The translations under genes and the position numbers were made by a program. Positions 1-61,053 of a stretch of DNA of 64,000 nt are shown piece by piece; the stretch's first letter is position 1, and every line of letters starts with the position of its first letter. Source of the DNA: an uncultured Clostridia bacterium (GTDB lineage Bacteria > Bacillota > Clostridia > Oscillospirales > JAAYOS01); the NCBI GenBank assembly GCA_947631015.1, contig CANRJS010000008.1, positions 1 through 64,000 of the forward strand, read 5' to 3'. The notes under the pieces were generated by a model, which ran no database searches, was not told the DNA's origin, and saw nothing but the letters and a program-made list of their open reading frames with translations.

Positions 1-9
1 AAAGCGCGC

Positions 10-600
10 TTAAGGGAGAGGGCTTCGCCCTCTCCCTTAATAATCCCTCTCCTGAATACGACACACAACCGCAACCCGCATAACAGGACACACTCTGTAT
101 CAAACACATCTATCATCCGACCGGGTGAGTTTCTGGGGTACATATCCGACTTTCCCACTGTATTCGACGACATCGAACAGTTCCTGCGTAGTAGAAATAA
201 AAGTCCGGTCCTACGCTCACACTATAAGCGTAATGCAGATACTTCCCCTAGAAAACGGAACTTTCGGTTCTAGGGGAAAGTATGAGCGTGGACGCTTGTA
301 CTAAGCTACGGACGGACGTCCCGCGTGGCAGAGACCTTCCGGTCAAAGGAAAGAGGGGTACAAAGGGGAGAAAACAAAGTTTTCTCCCCTTTGTGTGCTT
401 TTTGGTTACTTTTTGCACAAGCAAAAAGTAACGCGGGGTGTGGGGGTGCACCCCCCGTAAGGCAGCGGTGAGGCTCTGCCTCACTTAGGGACGCGGGGGT
501 CGCCCCGCAGATTCCCGCGGGGCTTCCCCGCTAGATGGGTGTGGGCTCCGCCAACTTGGACGCGGGGGTGCAACCCCCGCAAGGCGGCGGCATATTATGG
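10..600. repeat. Cluster of about nine short perfect or near-perfect hairpins
   Basis: ttaagggagagggc/gccctctcccttaa (10-40); acttcccctagaa/ttctaggggaaagt (241-281); caaaggggagaaaac/gttttctcccctttg (361-393); gttactttttgc/gcaaaaagtaac (405-432); gtgaggc/gcctcac (468-484); several gcggggg/cccccgc stems (440-580). Confidence 0.7.
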
Positions 601-1051: not shown

Positions 1052-2179
1052 ATGATATACCTCGACAACGCCGCGACGACCGTCGAGAAGCCGCCGAAGG
1101 TCGTCCGCGCGGTGGAGGAGGCGTTCCGGCGCGGCGGGAACGCCGGGCGGGGAGAGGGAAGCGGCTACGCCGGCGAGACCCTGCTCGCCTGCCGCACGGA
1201 GGCGGCGGCGCTCTTCGGCACGCGCCCGGAGCGGGTGGTATTCACCTTCAACGCGACGCACGCGCTGAATATCGCGATAGCTTCGCTTGCGCGGGGCGCG
1301 TGCCGAGCCGTCATATCCGGCTACGAGCACAACGCCGTCCGCCGTCCGCTCGTGGCGCGCGCGGAAGCGGGGCTCGAGACGGCGGTCGTCCGCTCGCCGC
1401 TGTTTGAGCCGGAGTATTTTCTTTTTATGTTCGAAAGAGCGCTCGAGCGCGGCGCGGACTTCGCGGTTTGCACCCACGTCTCGAACGTGTTCGGATATAT
1501 CCTGCCGATAGAGCGCGTGGACGCGCTCTGCGAGCGGTACGGCGTGCCGCTCATAGTGGACGCGAGCCAGTCCGCGGGCGTGCTGCCGCTCGACGCCGGA
1601 AGCCTCCGCGCCGCGCGGTTTATATGTATGCCGGGTCACAAGTCGCTCTACGGGCCGCAGGGGACCGGGCTCCTAATCTGCCTCGGGGACGCGGAACCGC
1701 TGCTCTACGGCGGGACCGGTCAGGACTCGCGCGCGGACGGTATGCCTGACTACCTGCCCGAGCGGCTCGAGGCGGGAACGCAGAACCTGCACGGCATAGC
1801 GGGGCTTCTCGAGGGGATACGGTATGTCCGCGAGCGCACGCCGGAGGCGATACTCGCGCACGAGCGCGCGTTCACAGAAAGAGTGCTCGACGGACTGCGG
1901 GTGCATCCCGAGATAAAGACCTACTCGTCGCGGGGACTGTTCTGCCAGACCGGCGTACTTTCACTCGAGCTGCGCGGCGGGGACAGCGAGACATTCGCGC
2001 ACGAGCTGATGCTTCGCGGAATAGCTACGCGCGGAGGACTGCACTGCGCGCCGCTCGCGCACGAGTCGGCGGGCACGTCGGAGCGCGGGACGGTGCGGAT
2101 AAGCCCGTCCGACTTCACGCGACTGCGGGACGCGGATACGCTAGTCGCAACTCTCGCAAGAAACAGTTCGCGGGCTTAG
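1052..2179 (+). CDS. Class V aminotransferase / cysteine desulfurase family protein
   Basis: MIYLDNAATTVEKPPKVV N-terminus; PLP-lysine region MPGHKSLYGPQGTG; start moved from 953 to ATG 1052. Confidence 0.88.
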   Translation: MIYLDNAATTVEKPPKVVRAVEEAFRRGGNAGRGEGSGYAGETLLACRTEAAALFGTRPERVVFTFNATHALNIAIASLARGACRAVISGYEHNAVRRPLVARAEAGLETAVVRSPLFEPEYFLFMFERALERGADFAVCTHVSNVFGYILPIERVDALCERYGVPLIVDASQSAGVLPLDAGSLRAARFICMPGHKSLYGPQGTGLLICLGDAEPLLYGGTGQDSRADGMPDYLPERLEAGTQNLHGIAGLLEGIRYVRERTPEAILAHERAFTERVLDGLRVHPEIKTYSSRGLFCQTGVLSLELRGGDSETFAHELMLRGIATRGGLHCAPLAHESAGTSERGTVRISPSDFTRLRDADTLVATLARNSSRA

Positions 2180-2200
2180 CCCGCGAACTGTTTCTTGCGA
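2154..2200 (+). terminator. Perfect 23-bp-arm palindrome overlapping the stop codon
   Basis: tcgcaagaaacagttcgcgggct-t-agcccgcgaactgtttcttgcga. Confidence 0.6.
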
Positions 2201-2595
2201 GGCCGCCGGACAAGGCCTGGCCTTGCCGGCGGCGCACGCTCCGCGAGAGGTGTAAATTTCGCCGTACACGCCGCCGAAATTTATCGATTTGACTCTATTT
2301 CGCCGCTTACGCGGCGAAACTCTGCGAGGCTTTGGCGAACAGCGGCACTTCGCGCCGTCCGCTCTATAAAGCAATCAAAGTTGGGCAATATTCGCGGAGC
2401 GAATATTGCGGGCGAAAGCAGTAGAGTGTCGGATGAAGAATCGGTTCGCGCTTTCGCTGTTCGCAGCGGTGAAGTTAGCGGCGCAGCCGCTAACTTTGCG
2501 GAGCCCCGATTCACTCGGGGCGAGCATTTTAATTTAAGAGTTCCCAAACGGCGCAAAGCGCCGTTTGGGACTTGGCGAAACTCTGCGAGGCGCGA
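2201..2595. repeat. Modular multi-hairpin intergenic island, copy R1
   Basis: Contains module A (2202-2233), GTACAC-loop hairpin, CTCTGCGAGGC linker, H5 (aatattcgc/gcgaatatt), H4 (2412-2457), H3, H2 and H1 shared with the other islands. Confidence 0.85.
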
Positions 2596-2598
2596 CAA

Positions 2599-14154: not shown

Positions 14155-15286
14155 GGTCATGACGGTTTTCGGCACCCGTCCGGAGGCGGTCAAGATGGCT
14201 CCTCTCGCGCTCGAGCTCGCCTCGCGCGAGGAGATAGAGAGCATCGTCTGCGTGACGGCTCAGCACCGCGAGATGCTTGACCAGATACTTGAGATATTCG
14301 GCATAGTCCCGCGCTACGACCTCAACATCATGAAGCCGGGGCAGACGCTCTACGAGATAACCGGCAGGATACTCGAGGGGATGGACGGCGTATTGAAGGA
14401 CGCCGCGCCGGACATCGTTCTCGTCCACGGCGACACGTCGACGACGTTTGCCGGGGCGCTTGCGGCGTTCTACCGTCAGATACCGGTGGGCCACGTCGAG
14501 GCGGGGCTTCGCACCTACAACATCTACTCGCCCTTCCCGGAGGAGATGAACCGCAGGCTCGTAGGTCAGATAGCGTCGCTGAACTTCGCGCCGACGCGCC
14601 GCAACGCGGAAAACCTCGCGCTCGAGCACGTCCTCGGCGAGACATTCATCACCGGCAACACAGTGATAGACGCGCTCAAGACCACCGTGCGGAGCGACTA
14701 CCGCTTCCGCGACCCGGTCCTGCGCGAGCTGGACGGCCTCGGCCACAGGATAGTTATAGTCACGGCTCACCGCCGCGAGAACTACGGCCGGCCCTTTGAG
14801 AACATCCTCTCGGCGATACGGGAGACCGCGTCGCGCTACCCGGAGGTCGAATTCGTGTACCCGGTCCACCTCTCCGAGTACGTCACCGAGAACGCGCACC
14901 GCGTGCTCGGCGGCGTGAGGAACATCCATCTCATAAAGCCGCTCGACCTCGACGAGATGCACAACCTCATGGAGCGCGCCTATATGGTCATGACCGACTC
15001 GGGTGGGATACAGGAGGAGGCTCCGGCGCTCGGCAAGCCGGTGCTCGTCATGCGCCACGAGACCGAGCGTCCGGAGGCGGTCGAGGCCGGGACGGTGAAG
15101 CTCTGCGGCATCGAGCGGGACGATATAATCTCTATGGCCTGCGAGCTTCTCGACGGCGGCGCGGCATATGACGCCATGGCGAACGCCGTCAACCCATACG
15201 GGGACGGAGAGGCGTCGCGCAGGATAACCGACGCGATACTTTGGCACTTCGGGCGCGGCGAAAAGCCGGACTCCTTCGGAGGCTGA
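14141..15286 (+). CDS. wecB: UDP-N-acetylglucosamine 2-epimerase (non-hydrolysing)
   Basis: VMTVFGTRPEAVKMAPL, VHGDTSTTFAGALAAFY, VGHVEAGLRT, DSGGIQEEAP; GTG start overlapping the upstream gene. Confidence 0.93.
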   Translation: MEKIKVMTVFGTRPEAVKMAPLALELASREEIESIVCVTAQHREMLDQILEIFGIVPRYDLNIMKPGQTLYEITGRILEGMDGVLKDAAPDIVLVHGDTSTTFAGALAAFYRQIPVGHVEAGLRTYNIYSPFPEEMNRRLVGQIASLNFAPTRRNAENLALEHVLGETFITGNTVIDALKTTVRSDYRFRDPVLRELDGLGHRIVIVTAHRRENYGRPFENILSAIRETASRYPEVEFVYPVHLSEYVTENAHRVLGGVRNIHLIKPLDLDEMHNLMERAYMVMTDSGGIQEEAPALGKPVLVMRHETERPEAVEAGTVKLCGIERDDIISMACELLDGGAAYDAMANAVNPYGDGEASRRITDAILWHFGRGEKPDSFGG

Positions 15287-20561: not shown

Positions 20562-20752
20562 AGCAAAACCTCCTTTGATTTGTCTGATTTATACAATTTT
20601 AATATACCATAATATAGCGTTTATTGCAACACCTTATCTGCGGGCGAAGCCGCGACCTTGCGGGGCAAAAGCAAAAGATTTGACTAATCGTATGCTTTGC
20701 GATATACTATATCCGTATAGATTTTTACAGCGGCGAAAGGGAGCGGGAAAGC

Positions 20753-25541: not shown

Positions 25542-26201
25542 ATGGTCTCGAAAAAGTGGATAACCTGTGCCTGCACGGTGCTGCTCGTGGTGCTTCTGCT
25601 CGCCGGCGGCGCGGCTATAGCGGCGGAGCTCGGCGGCGCGGACGACCCTCTCGTTTCGCTGAGCTACATAGAGCAGCTCATCCCGCAGCTCAATGACAAC
25701 ATCGAGAAGATAATAGGCCAGAAGGTAGACGAGTTCGACCAGTCCATCGACGAAAAGATAGCGCAGGTCGACCAATCGATAAACGACAAGATAAGCCGCT
25801 TTGAGGAGCAGTACGCCGCGGGCTTTGCCGATGAGGACTTCATCAACCGCGTTGCGGACGCGATAGCGTCGCGCGGAGTATCCGGCGGCACGACCGCGCC
25901 GGGCGGCGAGACGCCGTCCGCGCCGTCCGCCGGTACGACCGATTCCTTCACCGTCGTGGACGTGAGCGCCGGGCAGAAGCTCATAGGAGCGGTCGGCACC
26001 GAGATACTGTGGCGCATAGGCACCGCAAGCTGTGTCGCACCCGGCTCGCCCGGACTTATCGACATATCCTCCGGCGCGGATCTCGCCGCCGGCGGACAGC
26101 TCCAGCAGAACCACGTCTATGTCGTGACCGTCGCGGAGCGCGGCTTCCAGGCCACATCCAACTGCAAGGTGCTTATAAAGGGAACGTATACGATACAATA
26201 G
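25542..26201 (+). CDS. Secreted/anchored coiled-coil protein of unknown function
   Basis: N-terminal TM, heptad-like DEFDQSIDEKIAQVDQSINDKISRFEE, Thr/Pro-rich linker, C-terminal beta domain. Confidence 0.6.
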   Translation: MVSKKWITCACTVLLVVLLLAGGAAIAAELGGADDPLVSLSYIEQLIPQLNDNIEKIIGQKVDEFDQSIDEKIAQVDQSINDKISRFEEQYAAGFADEDFINRVADAIASRGVSGGTTAPGGETPSAPSAGTTDSFTVVDVSAGQKLIGAVGTEILWRIGTASCVAPGSPGLIDISSGADLAAGGQLQQNHVYVVTVAERGFQATSNCKVLIKGTYTIQ

Positions 26202-26258
26202 TCGTTACAAATAAGTAAGGGCGCGGATTTCATCCGCGCCCTTACTTATTTGTAACGA
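26202..26258 (+). terminator. Perfect 26-bp-arm palindrome immediately after the stop codon
   Basis: tcgttacaaataagtaagggcgcgga-tttca-tccgcgcccttacttatttgtaacga. Confidence 0.65.
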
Positions 26259-26650
26259 AGCCGCCGGACAGAGCGGAGCTCTGCCGGCGGCGGGCGCTCC
26301 GCTACGCAATTCCCACGCGGTCGGCGACCGCGTGGGAGCCCTTCCAATTGAAATGCTCGGGGCGAGTGAATCGCCCCTGCGCAAAGTTGCTTGCCATAGG
26401 CAAGCAACTTTAACCGCGCGAACCGGCGCGGGCGCCGCCTGCGGCGCTTCGAAGCGCGCTCCGCGCAAAGTATTTTCGGCGACGTACACGCCGCCGCCGA
26501 AAATAGATTAAACCTTATTCGCCGCCTTCGGCGGCGAACTCTGCGCGGCTTTTGCCGGGATGTCGGCGTGAAACGCCGTTTGGGGTTCTGATGCGCCCGG
26601 TAAAAAGTTTCGACGCGTAGCAAGTCGAGGGGCGCATTCTCTGCGCGGCT
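26259..26650. repeat. Modular multi-hairpin intergenic island, copy R2
   Basis: Module A (26260-26291), H1 (from 26311), ATTGAAATGCTCG linker, H2, H3, GTACAC-loop hairpin, CTCTGCGCGGC linker, H4 (26591-26637). Confidence 0.88.
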
Positions 26651-32159: not shown

Positions 32160-33101
32160 GTGTCGGAAAAACCGAATAGGCTCGGGCTGCGGCGCTTCCC
32201 GGACGTGCCGGCGAGCCGCGAGCACACGACCGGCATAGAGCGCCTTGACACATGGCTTTTGGGTCACAGAAGGGCGAGAGAAGTATTCGGCTTTGTGTTC
32301 CGGGTGCTGAGAGACAACCTGATAGGCACCGCCGCGCAGACGGCGTTTTTCCTGCTGCTCGCCATCTTCCCGATACTCATGCTTGTGGCAGGGTGGCTCT
32401 CGAGAATGCCGTTCGCGTTCGACACAGGTCTGCTCTCGGCGATATTCCCCGAGTCGGTCGCGTCTACCCTGCAGGAGGTCATGGAGCACGCTCCGAGCTC
32501 GACCGGATACACCGTCGTGCAGATAGCGCTGTCGGTCTGGTCGGCGTCGGCGGGAATATGGGCGCTGATGCGCGGTATCTGCATATCACACACCGGCAGG
32601 ACGCCGAACTACTTCAAGGGACGGATAATTTCGGTGCTGCTGATGGTGGGCTTTGTCGCGATGATAGCGCTGAGCCTCGTCGTCTGGGTGTTCGGCCGCG
32701 ACATAGTGAGCTACATCGCGGGCGGGGACTGGCAGAGCGGCGACGTTGTGGTCTCGGTGGCGCGGTACGCCTTCACGCTGCCGCTGCTGTTCCTCTTTGT
32801 GCTCGTGATGTACGCCGCGACGCCGGGCTTCCGCCTCGAGATGCGGCAGACGGCGATAGGCGCGGCGATAGCCGCCGTGAGCTGGACGCTCGTCAGCCGT
32901 GGCTTCGAGGCGTATATGAGCACGTTTTCGCGCTACTCCGCGCTGTACGGCGGCGTCGGCGCGTTCCTCGGACTTGCGGTGTGGCTGCTCGTCGTCTGCT
33001 TCGTGATAATGTTCGGCGCGGAAGTGAACGCGTATATCGCCGAGACCGCCGCGCTCCGCGCGGCGCTCACGACGGAGCTCAGACCGCCGGACAAGGCGTA
33101 G
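32160..33101 (+). CDS. YihY/BrkB family membrane protein
   Basis: Multiple TM segments, NLIGTAAQTAFFLLLAIFPILM; GTG start after gggaggtgagc. Confidence 0.85.
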   Translation: MSEKPNRLGLRRFPDVPASREHTTGIERLDTWLLGHRRAREVFGFVFRVLRDNLIGTAAQTAFFLLLAIFPILMLVAGWLSRMPFAFDTGLLSAIFPESVASTLQEVMEHAPSSTGYTVVQIALSVWSASAGIWALMRGICISHTGRTPNYFKGRIISVLLMVGFVAMIALSLVVWVFGRDIVSYIAGGDWQSGDVVVSVARYAFTLPLLFLFVLVMYAATPGFRLEMRQTAIGAAIAAVSWTLVSRGFEAYMSTFSRYSALYGGVGAFLGLAVWLLVVCFVIMFGAEVNAYIAETAALRAALTTELRPPDKA

Positions 33102-33485
33102 ATATTCACGGCAAATCGCGCTCGCTTCGCTCGCTTACCAATTTGCCGCGAAGCCGCCGGACAAGGCGCAGCCTTGCCGGCGGCAAGCGCTCCGCTACGC
33201 GTCGATTTTCCGCCTGCGGCGGAAAATCGACGCATTCCCACGCGGTCGGCGACCGCGTGGGAGCCCTTCCGATTGAAATGCTCGCCGGAAATGAATTCCG
33301 GCTCCTTAAAGTTGCTTGCCCGAGGCAAGCAACTTTAACCGTTGCGAACCGCGAGGGCTCGAACCAATTTCTCATCCGACATTTTACAGCCCTCGCTTGC
33401 AATATTCGCTTTGCGAATATTGCCCGACATTGAGCTAAATAAAAGGCGGAACCGCCTTTGGCGGCGAACTCTGCGAGGCTTTTGG
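33102..33485. repeat. Modular multi-hairpin intergenic island, copy R3
   Basis: Module A (33153-33184), cgattttccgc/gcggaaaatcg, H1 (from 33236), ATTGAAATGCTCG linker, H2, H3, H4 (33351-33396), H5, CTCTGCGAGGC linker. Confidence 0.88.
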
Positions 33486-45233: not shown

Positions 45234-46456
45234 TGCGTAAGGTCGAGCTTCTGAGTCCCGCGGGGGACATGTCCAAGCTGAAGATGGCGCTCGCCTACGG
45301 CGCGGACGCGGTGTACCTCGCGGCGGACAGGTACGGTATGCGCGCCGCCGCGGGCAACTTCCGCGAGGAGACTCTTGCGGAGGCGGCGCGCCTCGCTCAC
45401 GCCGCCGGCGCGCGGGCGTACATCACGATAAACACCGTCGCACACGAGGACGAGCTCGAGGGAGCGGCGCGCCTCGCGCGCATAGCGGAGGAGAGCGGGC
45501 TCGACGCGGCGATAGTCGCGGACGCGGGCGTGCTCGGCCTCGTGAAGCGCGCCGCGCCGTCGCTTGAGGTACACATGTCCACGCAGGCGGGCATCACGAA
45601 CAGCGCGTCCGCGCGGATGTGGCACGACCTCGGCGCGAAGCGCGTTATACTCGCGCGCGAGCTCACCTTGGACGAGATAGCGTCGATACGCGCGAACACG
45701 CCGCGCGAGCTCGAGCTTGAGGTGTTCGTCCACGGCGCGATGTGCGTCAGCTTCTCGGGGCGCTGCCTCCTCTCGGAGTACATGGCGGGCAGAGACGGAA
45801 ACCGCGGCGAGTGCGCGCAGCCCTGCCGATGGCGCTACCACCTCGTCGAGGAGAGCCGCCCCGGCGAATATTACGAGATGCAGGAGCATCCCGAGGGGAC
45901 ATATATCCTCAACTCGAAGGACCTCAACGCGATACGCCTCCTTGACAGGATAATCGAGGCCGGCGCGTCGAGCCTCAAGATAGAGGGACGCTCGAAGAGC
46001 GAATACTATGCCGCCGCCGTCACCTACGCCTATCGCGGCGCGCTAGACGACCTGTACGCCGGGCGTCCGTTCGACGAACGGTGGGAGGAGGAGCTGGGAA
46101 AGGTCAGCCACCGGCCGTACTGCGACGGGTTCTTCCGCGAGCGGCCGAAGCACGGACTTCAGTACACCGGCGACTCGCGGTATATACGCGACTGGGAGGT
46201 CGCGGCGGTGGTGGAGCGTGTCGAGGGAGAGTATGCCTTCGTGTCGCTGAAGAACCCGTTCGGGGAGGACGAGGAGCTGGAGCTTCTCTCACCCGGACGC
46301 CGCCCCGAGAAGGTGCGCGTCCGCGAGATATACGAGCTCGGCGCGGACGGCGCTGAGACGCGCGTCACGCGCGCGACAAAGAACCAGCTGACGCACCGTC
46401 TGCTCCTGCCGGACGTAAAGCCGCAGGCAATACTTCGAAAAAGTCGCGAGAAATAG
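45230..46456 (+). CDS. U32 family peptidase (TrhP/YegQ-like tRNA hydroxylation protein)
   Basis: ELLSPAGDMSKLKMALAYGADAVY; VHGAMCVSFSGRCLLSEYMAGRDGNRGECAQPCRW. Confidence 0.93.
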   Translation: MMRKVELLSPAGDMSKLKMALAYGADAVYLAADRYGMRAAAGNFREETLAEAARLAHAAGARAYITINTVAHEDELEGAARLARIAEESGLDAAIVADAGVLGLVKRAAPSLEVHMSTQAGITNSASARMWHDLGAKRVILARELTLDEIASIRANTPRELELEVFVHGAMCVSFSGRCLLSEYMAGRDGNRGECAQPCRWRYHLVEESRPGEYYEMQEHPEGTYILNSKDLNAIRLLDRIIEAGASSLKIEGRSKSEYYAAAVTYAYRGALDDLYAGRPFDERWEEELGKVSHRPYCDGFFRERPKHGLQYTGDSRYIRDWEVAAVVERVEGEYAFVSLKNPFGEDEELELLSPGRRPEKVRVREIYELGADGAETRVTRATKNQLTHRLLLPDVKPQAILRKSREK

Positions 46457-46486
46457 GTTGCGGGCGAAGCCCGCAACCTATTTCTC
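46448..46486 (+). terminator. Perfect palindrome overlapping the stop codon
   Basis: gagaaataggttgcgggc-gaa-gcccgcaacctatttctc. Confidence 0.65.
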
Positions 46487-46700
46487 ACGAGGAGTTCACT
46501 TGGAATTGCGCCTGCGCAATTCCAAGTGAAGCTGTCGATAGGGCAAAGCCCTACCGACAGCGGGCGCTCCGCTACGCGCCTCGACGGCTTCGACGTCTTC
46601 GACGCGCGCTCCGCGAGAGGTATTTTCGGTGACGTACACACCGTCGCCGAAAATGATTTGAATTTATTTCGCGCCTGCGGCGCGAAACTCTGCGAGGCTT
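46487..46700. repeat. Modular multi-hairpin intergenic island, copy R4
   Basis: ttcacttggaattgcg/cgcaattccaagtgaa; module A variant (46531-46561); GTACAC-loop hairpin; tttcgcgcc/ggcgcgaaa + CTCTGCGAGGCTT. Confidence 0.82.
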
Positions 46701-47647: not shown

Positions 47648-48184
47648 TATTCGCTGACGCGTCGGCGCGAAATGTGCTCGGGCAATGAATTGCCCTGCGC
47701 AACCCCACGCGGTCGGCGACCGCGCGGGAGCCCTTCCTATTTATATGCTCGCCCTGAATGAATCGGGGCTCCGCAAATTCGGCGTTTTGCGCCGAATTTG
47801 ACCGCGCGAACCGGCGTGGAGTACGGCTTTGCCGTCTTCGACGCACGCTCCGCGCAGTACAAGGTCGGGACGTCGGCGCGAAGCGCCGAGGTCTGATGCG
47901 CCCGGTAAAAGGTTGGAAGCGGTATGGGTTCGAGGGCGCATTGTACACGCCGTCGGAAAAACGGATTTGACTCTATTTCGTGCCTGCGGCGCGAAACTTT
48001 GCGAGGCTAACGCGAAGTTTCACAGTTGCGCGCATAGCGCGCATCCGCGCCGGTTCGCGCGGTTGAAGTTAGCGGCGGAGCCGCTAACTTCGCGCAGCCG
48101 GAATCCATTTCCGGCGAGCATTTCAATCAAAGGGGTCCCCAAGCGGCGTGAAACGCCGCTTGGGACTTAACTATGCGAGGCTTG
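47648..48184. repeat. Modular multi-hairpin intergenic island, copy R5
   Basis: H1-linker-H2-H3 forward (about 47704-47800), H4 (47896-47941), CTTTGCGAGGC linker, then H3-H2-linker-H1 again in reverse orientation (about 48060-48168). Confidence 0.85.
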
Positions 48185-60313: not shown

Positions 60314-60362
60314 TCGGGGAATAGCGGTGGGCAGACTTCGTCTGCCCACCACCATTCCCCGA
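60314..60362. terminator. Long hairpin at edge of island R6
   Basis: tcggggaat..ggtgggcagac-ttc-gtctgcccacc..attccccga. Confidence 0.5.
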
Positions 60363-61020
60363 GGGGCCGTCGGACAAGGCAAAGCCTTGCCGACGGCAAC
60401 ACTCCGCTATGCGCCGATTTTTCCGCCTGCGGCGGAAAAATCGACGCATTCCCGCGCGGTCGCCGACCGCGTGGGAGCCCTTTTAATTGAAATGCTCGTG
60501 CGGAACACGAGGGCGCCGACATATTCCGCATTGGCGCATATTCAGCCCTCGTGAGCTTTACCCGCGAAGCGGGTAAAGCCATACATTGATATAATTCGCC
60601 TGCGCGAAGTTGGCGGCTTTGCCGTGGGCTTCAACCGCTGCGAACCGCGAGGGCGCGAACCCATTCTTCATCCGACATTTTACAGCCCTCGCTCGCAATA
60701 TTCGCTTTGCGAATATTACCCGACATTGAGGTAATTAGAATGCGGAGTACGGCTTCGCCGTCTTCGACGCACGCTCCGCGAGAGGTATTTTTTCCCCGTC
60801 TATTAGCAGAAAGTCGGGACGTCGGCGCGAAGCGCGGTTAAATTCAGCGCACAGCGCTGAATTTGCGGAGGGCAGCCATATCAATGTCCGGCTTTGCCCG
60901 CGAAGCGGGTAAAGCTCACGAGGGCTGAATATGTGCCGATGCGGAATATGTCGGCGCCCTCGTGTTCGGGAGCGAGCATTTCAATCAAAGGGCTCCCAAA
61001 CGGCGCTCTGCGCCGTTTGG
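60363..61020. repeat. Modular multi-hairpin intergenic island, copy R6, with long inverted arms
   Basis: Module A (60366-60397); H1-linker; 60473-60592 is near-identical to the reverse complement of 60879-60997; H4 (60647-60692) and H5 in between. Confidence 0.88.
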
Positions 61021-61024
61021 GAAT

Positions 61025-61053
61025 TTGCAAATCGCGTGGTGCTGTGCTACAAT
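61025..61053 (+). promoter_or_regulatory. Promoter TTGCAA-17-TACAAT
   Basis: Hexamers, extended -10, upstream of the LytTR regulator; starts inside the island edge. Confidence 0.6.

Follow-up and report, generated by a model that had tools for sequence, protein, structure and literature searches.

A hairpin of 32 nt lies just behind an aminotransferase gene in an uncultured Clostridia bacterium, and its two arms change together from copy to copy. Is this pairing kept by selection on an RNA, or is it a property of the DNA? Covarying stems are usually taken as strong evidence for a functional RNA, and the repeat described here passes covariation controls strongly. It fails on the ratio of G.U to A.C deviations, the test by which RNA pairing can be told from DNA palindromy. 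We analysed a window of 64,000 nt (contig CANRJS010000008.1, positions 1 to 64,000) and followed the hairpin, here called module A, into related genomes and viral contigs, all relevant genomes being drafts or MAGs.

Five copies of module A are present in the window (Table 1), at the places given in a preliminary description made from the letters alone, which also counted at least five base pairs changed on both strands; five do change in this way. Its "GA/C internal loop" was a misreading, as GCCGCCGG-A-CAAGGC and GCCTTG-CCGGCGGC form a continuous helix with a single bulged A. The copy in R4 has one G fewer, which leaves an A.C mismatch in place of the bulge. A covariance model built from the five window copies and run on the 1.89 Mb genome identified about 88-89 clear copies (best E 2.7e-16), and the exact stem pattern matched 16 times, versus 0 for a reversed-pattern control. 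The arm haplotypes are few (outer CCGCCGG, CTGTCGG, CCGTCGG and GCACCGG; inner CAGAGC, CAAGGC, TAGGGC and CAGGGC) and they reassort, several copies combining arms of different haplotypes. In the copies inspected, the flanks are GCGAA or GCGAG on the 5' side and AAGCGCTCCGC on the 3' side.

Module A is one module of a larger DNA repeat that many gut Clostridia carry just past stop codons and that is absent from Rfam 15, where no family was matched at its gathering score and only chance-like matches were seen below threshold. The order of parts is a P0 palindrome, module A, central palindromes, hairpin B, hairpin D and a fixed tag, AAACTCTGCGAGGC. With its linkers the element reads P0 - A - GCGCTCCGCTWCGC - central palindrome - CTCCGCGAGARG - B - GATTTGACTCTATT - D - AACTCTGCGAGGC. 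In the first copy, R1, P0 includes the TAG stop codon (2177-2179) of the upstream aminotransferase-V gene (Pfam Aminotran_5; ORF end 2179). At R4 the element stands in place of the final codons of a U32 peptidase gene and provides the TAG stop of that gene. The end of the gene that precedes R3 (window 33080-33101, with its G001 counterpart in L107) reads as the left arm of module A (CCGCCGGACAAGGCGTAG), which indicates that element sequence has turned into coding sequence. Another repeat rich in palindromes, about 730 nt long, occurs at window 1-600 and in L107 at 14199-14936; a relative is inserted in G001 at the counterpart of window position 20665, and this genome has a near-empty site there.

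Table 1. Positions in the window of the parts of copy R1 and of the other copies of the element.
Feature	Position	Strand	Description
P0 palindrome of R1	2153..2201	+	24-nt perfect inverted repeat
Module A hairpin (R1)	2202..2233	+	8+6 bp stem, one bulged A, 3-nt loop
Linker GCACGCTCCGCGAGAGG	2234..2250	+	conserved between copies and across families
Hairpin B, conserved loop GCCGTACACGCCG	2251..2283	+	
Linker TCGATTTGACTCTATT	2284..2299	+	
Hairpin D	2300..2317	+	
3' tag AACTCTGCGAGGC	2318..2330	+	second tag at 2580-2590
Further R1 palindromic modules	2331..2596	.	inverted repeats I2, I4, I5; partly inverted relative to R5/R6
R2 copy	26202..26550	+	directly behind TAG stop 26199-26201; module A 26260-26291; tag near 26538
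R3 copy	33105..33480	+	starts 3 nt past TAG stop; module A 33153-33184; tag at 33468
R4 copy	46443..46697	+	module A 46531-46561; tag at 46687
Part of R5	47705..48017	+	313 nt, occupied here, empty in G001 and G004
R6 copy	60320..61035	+	long mosaic; module A 60366-60397; between divergent genes, exception to gene-end rule

The distribution of module A is narrow. With the covariance model, the three sister species have 72-91 copies each; G003, which is also of this genus, has none, and the other genomes of the order gave no credible match. One match, in G036, sits in coding sequence and was rejected as a false positive. Exact-pattern matches that carry names, among the matches listed, are to uncultured Clostridia MAGs from the rabbit gut. 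The tag is more widespread: a search of 394 genomes of the order recovered 47-69 copies per genome in four genomes of the genus and 1-20 per genome in five genomes that belong to a different family of the order (f13), with zero matches for reversed-pattern controls. The f13 copies have the same architecture with different stems and are without module A. A covariance model of hairpin B, hairpin D and tag detected the element in 108 of 201 f13 genomes, representing 72 of 106 genera, and, within a 391-genome sample of the class, in the genome studied here and two f13 genomes only.

Three viral (phage) contigs that are close relatives of one another (L205, L206 and L207) carry a short form of the element immediately past the stop of a gene. 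The pattern of the B loop was identified in five viral contigs and the tag in one; module A was not found in viral contigs, and the GenBank phage collection gave one weak match of 53 nt. We found no description of such repeats in the papers searched on related Clostridia, which does not prove that none exists.

The element marks gene ends with unusual precision, so that an insertion specificity or a 3'-end function is to be found. In its own genome the upstream gene is co-directional with the element for 71 of 83 scorable copies (binomial p 2e-11), and the orientation of the downstream gene is even (39 vs 40). P0 starts 0-8 nt past the stop codon in most of 63 clear cases, gene calls being made by a simple script that scores codons and was trained on the window, so that single cases may be wrong. 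Some P0 palindromes include the stop codon and some come after a native terminator; R6 and other copies lie away from gene ends. The same placement rule applies to the f13 elements. Direct repeats flank these above control (p 8e-6), the clear cases being 27-35 nt long and mostly terminator hairpins. A host terminator or gene end of 27-35 nt is present on both sides of the element at 6 of 33 f13 loci, the clearest case being the gene end in L260, which is 29 nt long and non-palindromic. Host terminator hairpins are seen on both sides of the element in L290, L303, L310, L311 and L313, and in several of these the downstream copy retains its T run.

Some f13 copies end in TGTCRAAAA / TTTTYGACA-like sequences, which may be terminal inverted repeats of the element; overall, the left-right inverted similarity does not exceed control (p 0.14), and motif counts are weak. 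Ends of this kind, TGTCRAAAA-like on the left and TTTTYGACA-like on the right, occur in L286, L298, L311, L315 and others.

Alignment of genomic copies, proposed in the preliminary description as a check, bears out strong covariation. Among 91 distinct copies of module A, 96.6% of cells are paired and 12 of 14 pairs show two-sided change. The covariation score is 0.346; shuffled alignments average 0.174, half as much, and slid ones reach at most 0.125, about a third. Unpaired stem substitutions, which that description had held would count against its hairpin, are present in some copies, at about 3% of cells.

If the stability of a sense RNA kept these stems, G.U would be expected to be far better tolerated than A.C. 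Stem deviations are G.T:A.C = 22:19 in 300 hairpins of the own genome and 46:36 in 613 hairpins when the sister species are included. For tRNAs from the same loci the ratio is 40:0 (Fisher p 2.6e-8), a control that is somewhat biased because ARAGORN favours G.U. An alignment of hairpins B and D (41 sequences, mostly f13) contains 157 two-sided changes and G.T in 1 cell of 817; the f13 deviations amount to one G.T and 28 A.C. These A.C cells probably come mostly from one position of hairpin B at which 30 cells are unpaired. That position (alignment A4, columns 24/36) is a conserved mismatch in an otherwise perfect stem, unpaired and mostly A.C in 30 of 41 cells; on the opposite strand it would be a G.T wobble. 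A preference for G.U over A.C on the transcribed strand, as a structured RNA would have, is not seen. The pairing is Watson-Crick on both strands, as DNA palindromes would show.

Comparison of sister species shows how fast the stems turn over. We matched 66 module A copies to the corresponding site of a sister species through the upstream sequence, at a mean identity of 94.1%, and only five pairs have identical hairpins. Stem divergence is 0.142 at orthologous sites versus 0.169 for random pairs, with 100 two-sided versus 60 one-sided changes. The P0, A and C palindromes at site R4 differ among the four species and occupy the same place. Since orthologous copies are nearly as different as random ones beside 94%-identical coding sequence, we infer block replacement at the DNA level. 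Independent point mutations at 6% divergence are not expected to give such turnover; block replacement or templated correction can. Replacement or correction of palindromes as blocks would have both arms change together and leave the linkers, loops and 3' tag as they are.

Given stems that show no G.U preference and differ at shared sites nearly as much as random copies do, covariation statistics alone would mislead here. Of the covarying hairpin first described, what holds both throughout the genome and between families is that its arms change together. It implied an RNA structure evolving by stepwise compensatory change, which R-scape or SHAPE would confirm; this is unsupported, in view of the deviation ratio set against tRNA and of the orthologous comparison; the "compensatory changes" look like palindrome turnover in DNA. 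The repeat is of interest as a natural and very large data set, covering over 70 genera, on how palindromes stay perfect.

The presence of element sequence also differs between species. The 313 nt present at R5 in G000 are missing from G001 and G004, a presence/absence polymorphism at an orthologous site, and whole elements are missing from syntenic sites of G003. Comparison with this element-free genome shows that the gene end at R4 has been replaced. The presence/absence differences show gain or loss of the element. At R5 we detected no clean short target duplication beside the difference.

The repeat is probably a non-autonomous mosaic palindromic DNA element that is put in at gene 3' ends and then undergoes turnover of palindromes as whole blocks, with module A as an exchangeable hairpin. 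Insertions would follow the direction of the gene and would land where a transcription unit has its 3' end, either at the stop codon or right behind its terminator hairpin. Palindromes already in place would be swapped or corrected as blocks through conversion between dispersed copies, insertion of new modules or template-switch correction of arms. A putative enzyme supplied by the host or by phages may carry out transposition or integration, and the palindromic shape, as a folded single strand or a cruciform, may be what this enzyme or the replication machinery recognises. A bolder proposal, which we put forward tentatively and with considerable doubt, is that the repeat represents structure-encoded mobile DNA of a new class. 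Such DNA would be directed to stop codons or terminator hairpins at the 3' ends of transcription units, would duplicate about 28 nt of target, would have exchangeable hairpin cassettes as its recognised parts, and would have been spread by a putative recombinase over most genera of one Clostridia family and their phages.

Several of the same observations could be read otherwise. Sense orientation in 3' UTRs and adjacency to the stop codon would also fit a functional structured RNA, one that protects mRNA 3' ends, controls translation termination or serves as a processing signal, spread to many genes and with stems kept by selection on the RNA, as would unpaired linkers and loops that are conserved across families while the stems covary. 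Ribosome stalling is reported in E. coli for REPs that lie within 15 nt of a stop codon (PMC12306157). We consider this reading unlikely, given the missing G.U excess, the absence from G003 and patchiness between genomes, the lack of an Rfam match, and wholesale stem swaps between 94%-identical neighbours. Mobility could be dispensed with if ancestral gene-end palindromes were altered solely by template switching and gene conversion. Template switching is able to make and maintain perfect hairpins and to produce multi-base compensatory changes (PMC8794818), and several species do share orthologous sites at which stems differ. Against this stand the retained synteny of G003 without the element, a patchy occurrence across genera and phage contigs with an identical tag, and the 313-nt presence/absence; a history free of mobility is very unlikely.

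Mobilisation as REP/BIME elements, by a Y1 (RAYT/IS200-type) transposase acting on bulged-base hairpins, would suit the high-copy palindromes, mosaic strings, stop-codon proximity, alternative complementary stems and 1-nt bulges, all known for REPs (PMC3733652, PMC12306157). However, Y1_Tnp (PF01797) is encoded in none of the five genus genomes, Y1 and the element are unassociated across 201 f13 genomes (odds ratio 1.12, Fisher p 0.77), and no GTAG or CGTC tag was seen beside the hairpins, so that we give this route scant credence. Nor are these hairpins, in all likelihood, ordinary intrinsic transcription terminators. They do lie immediately past stop codons, but no T runs follow the hairpins of the element; real terminator-like hairpins with T runs come after it, as behind R4, or flank it left and right. 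A terminator would also leave the shared tag and linkers unaccounted for.

Among known systems, group IIC introns insert near terminator hairpins and are similar to the element in this respect; the element differs in its length of about 230 nt and in having no intron match in Rfam. A reverse transcriptase as mobiliser, or a group II intron, was considered and rejected (PF00078 in 0 of 5 genus genomes). Integron attC sites are palindromes behind stop codons, variable in sequence and with an extrahelical base, and so resemble the element. Its copies, in contrast, are dispersed over many contigs behind syntenic chromosomal genes and are not in cassette arrays. Template switching is documented as both maker and keeper of hairpins, and the perfect stems and simultaneous two-sided changes of the element are like its products (PMC8794818), whereas here whole stems are replaced in dispersed copies.

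REPs cluster just past stop codons and at times provide the stop, and they have alternative complementary stem residues and single-base bulges (PMC3733652, PMC12306157). The element resembles the REP/BIME sequences of enterobacteria, Pseudomonas and others in its short high-copy palindromes, mosaic strings and clustering at stop codons, and module A, at 32 nt and ~88 copies, falls within their definition as high-copy palindromes of 20-40 bp. It differs in that its multi-hairpin architecture is fixed and far longer and ends in a conserved 3' tag; no GTAG/CGTC tag was seen, and the Y1 transposase is absent from the genus genomes and unassociated with the element in f13. MITEs are non-coding, high-copy, intergenic, strongly folded and non-autonomous sequences of 100-250 nt (PMC2229807). 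The element shares these traits, and its size, with MITEs and with composite repeats such as ERIC, RUP and Correia/NEMIS. Pneumococcal BOX is another bacterial composite repeat of comparable kind. What distinguishes the element from MITEs and composite repeats is its precise location at gene 3' ends, its sense orientation and its exchangeable hairpin cassettes.
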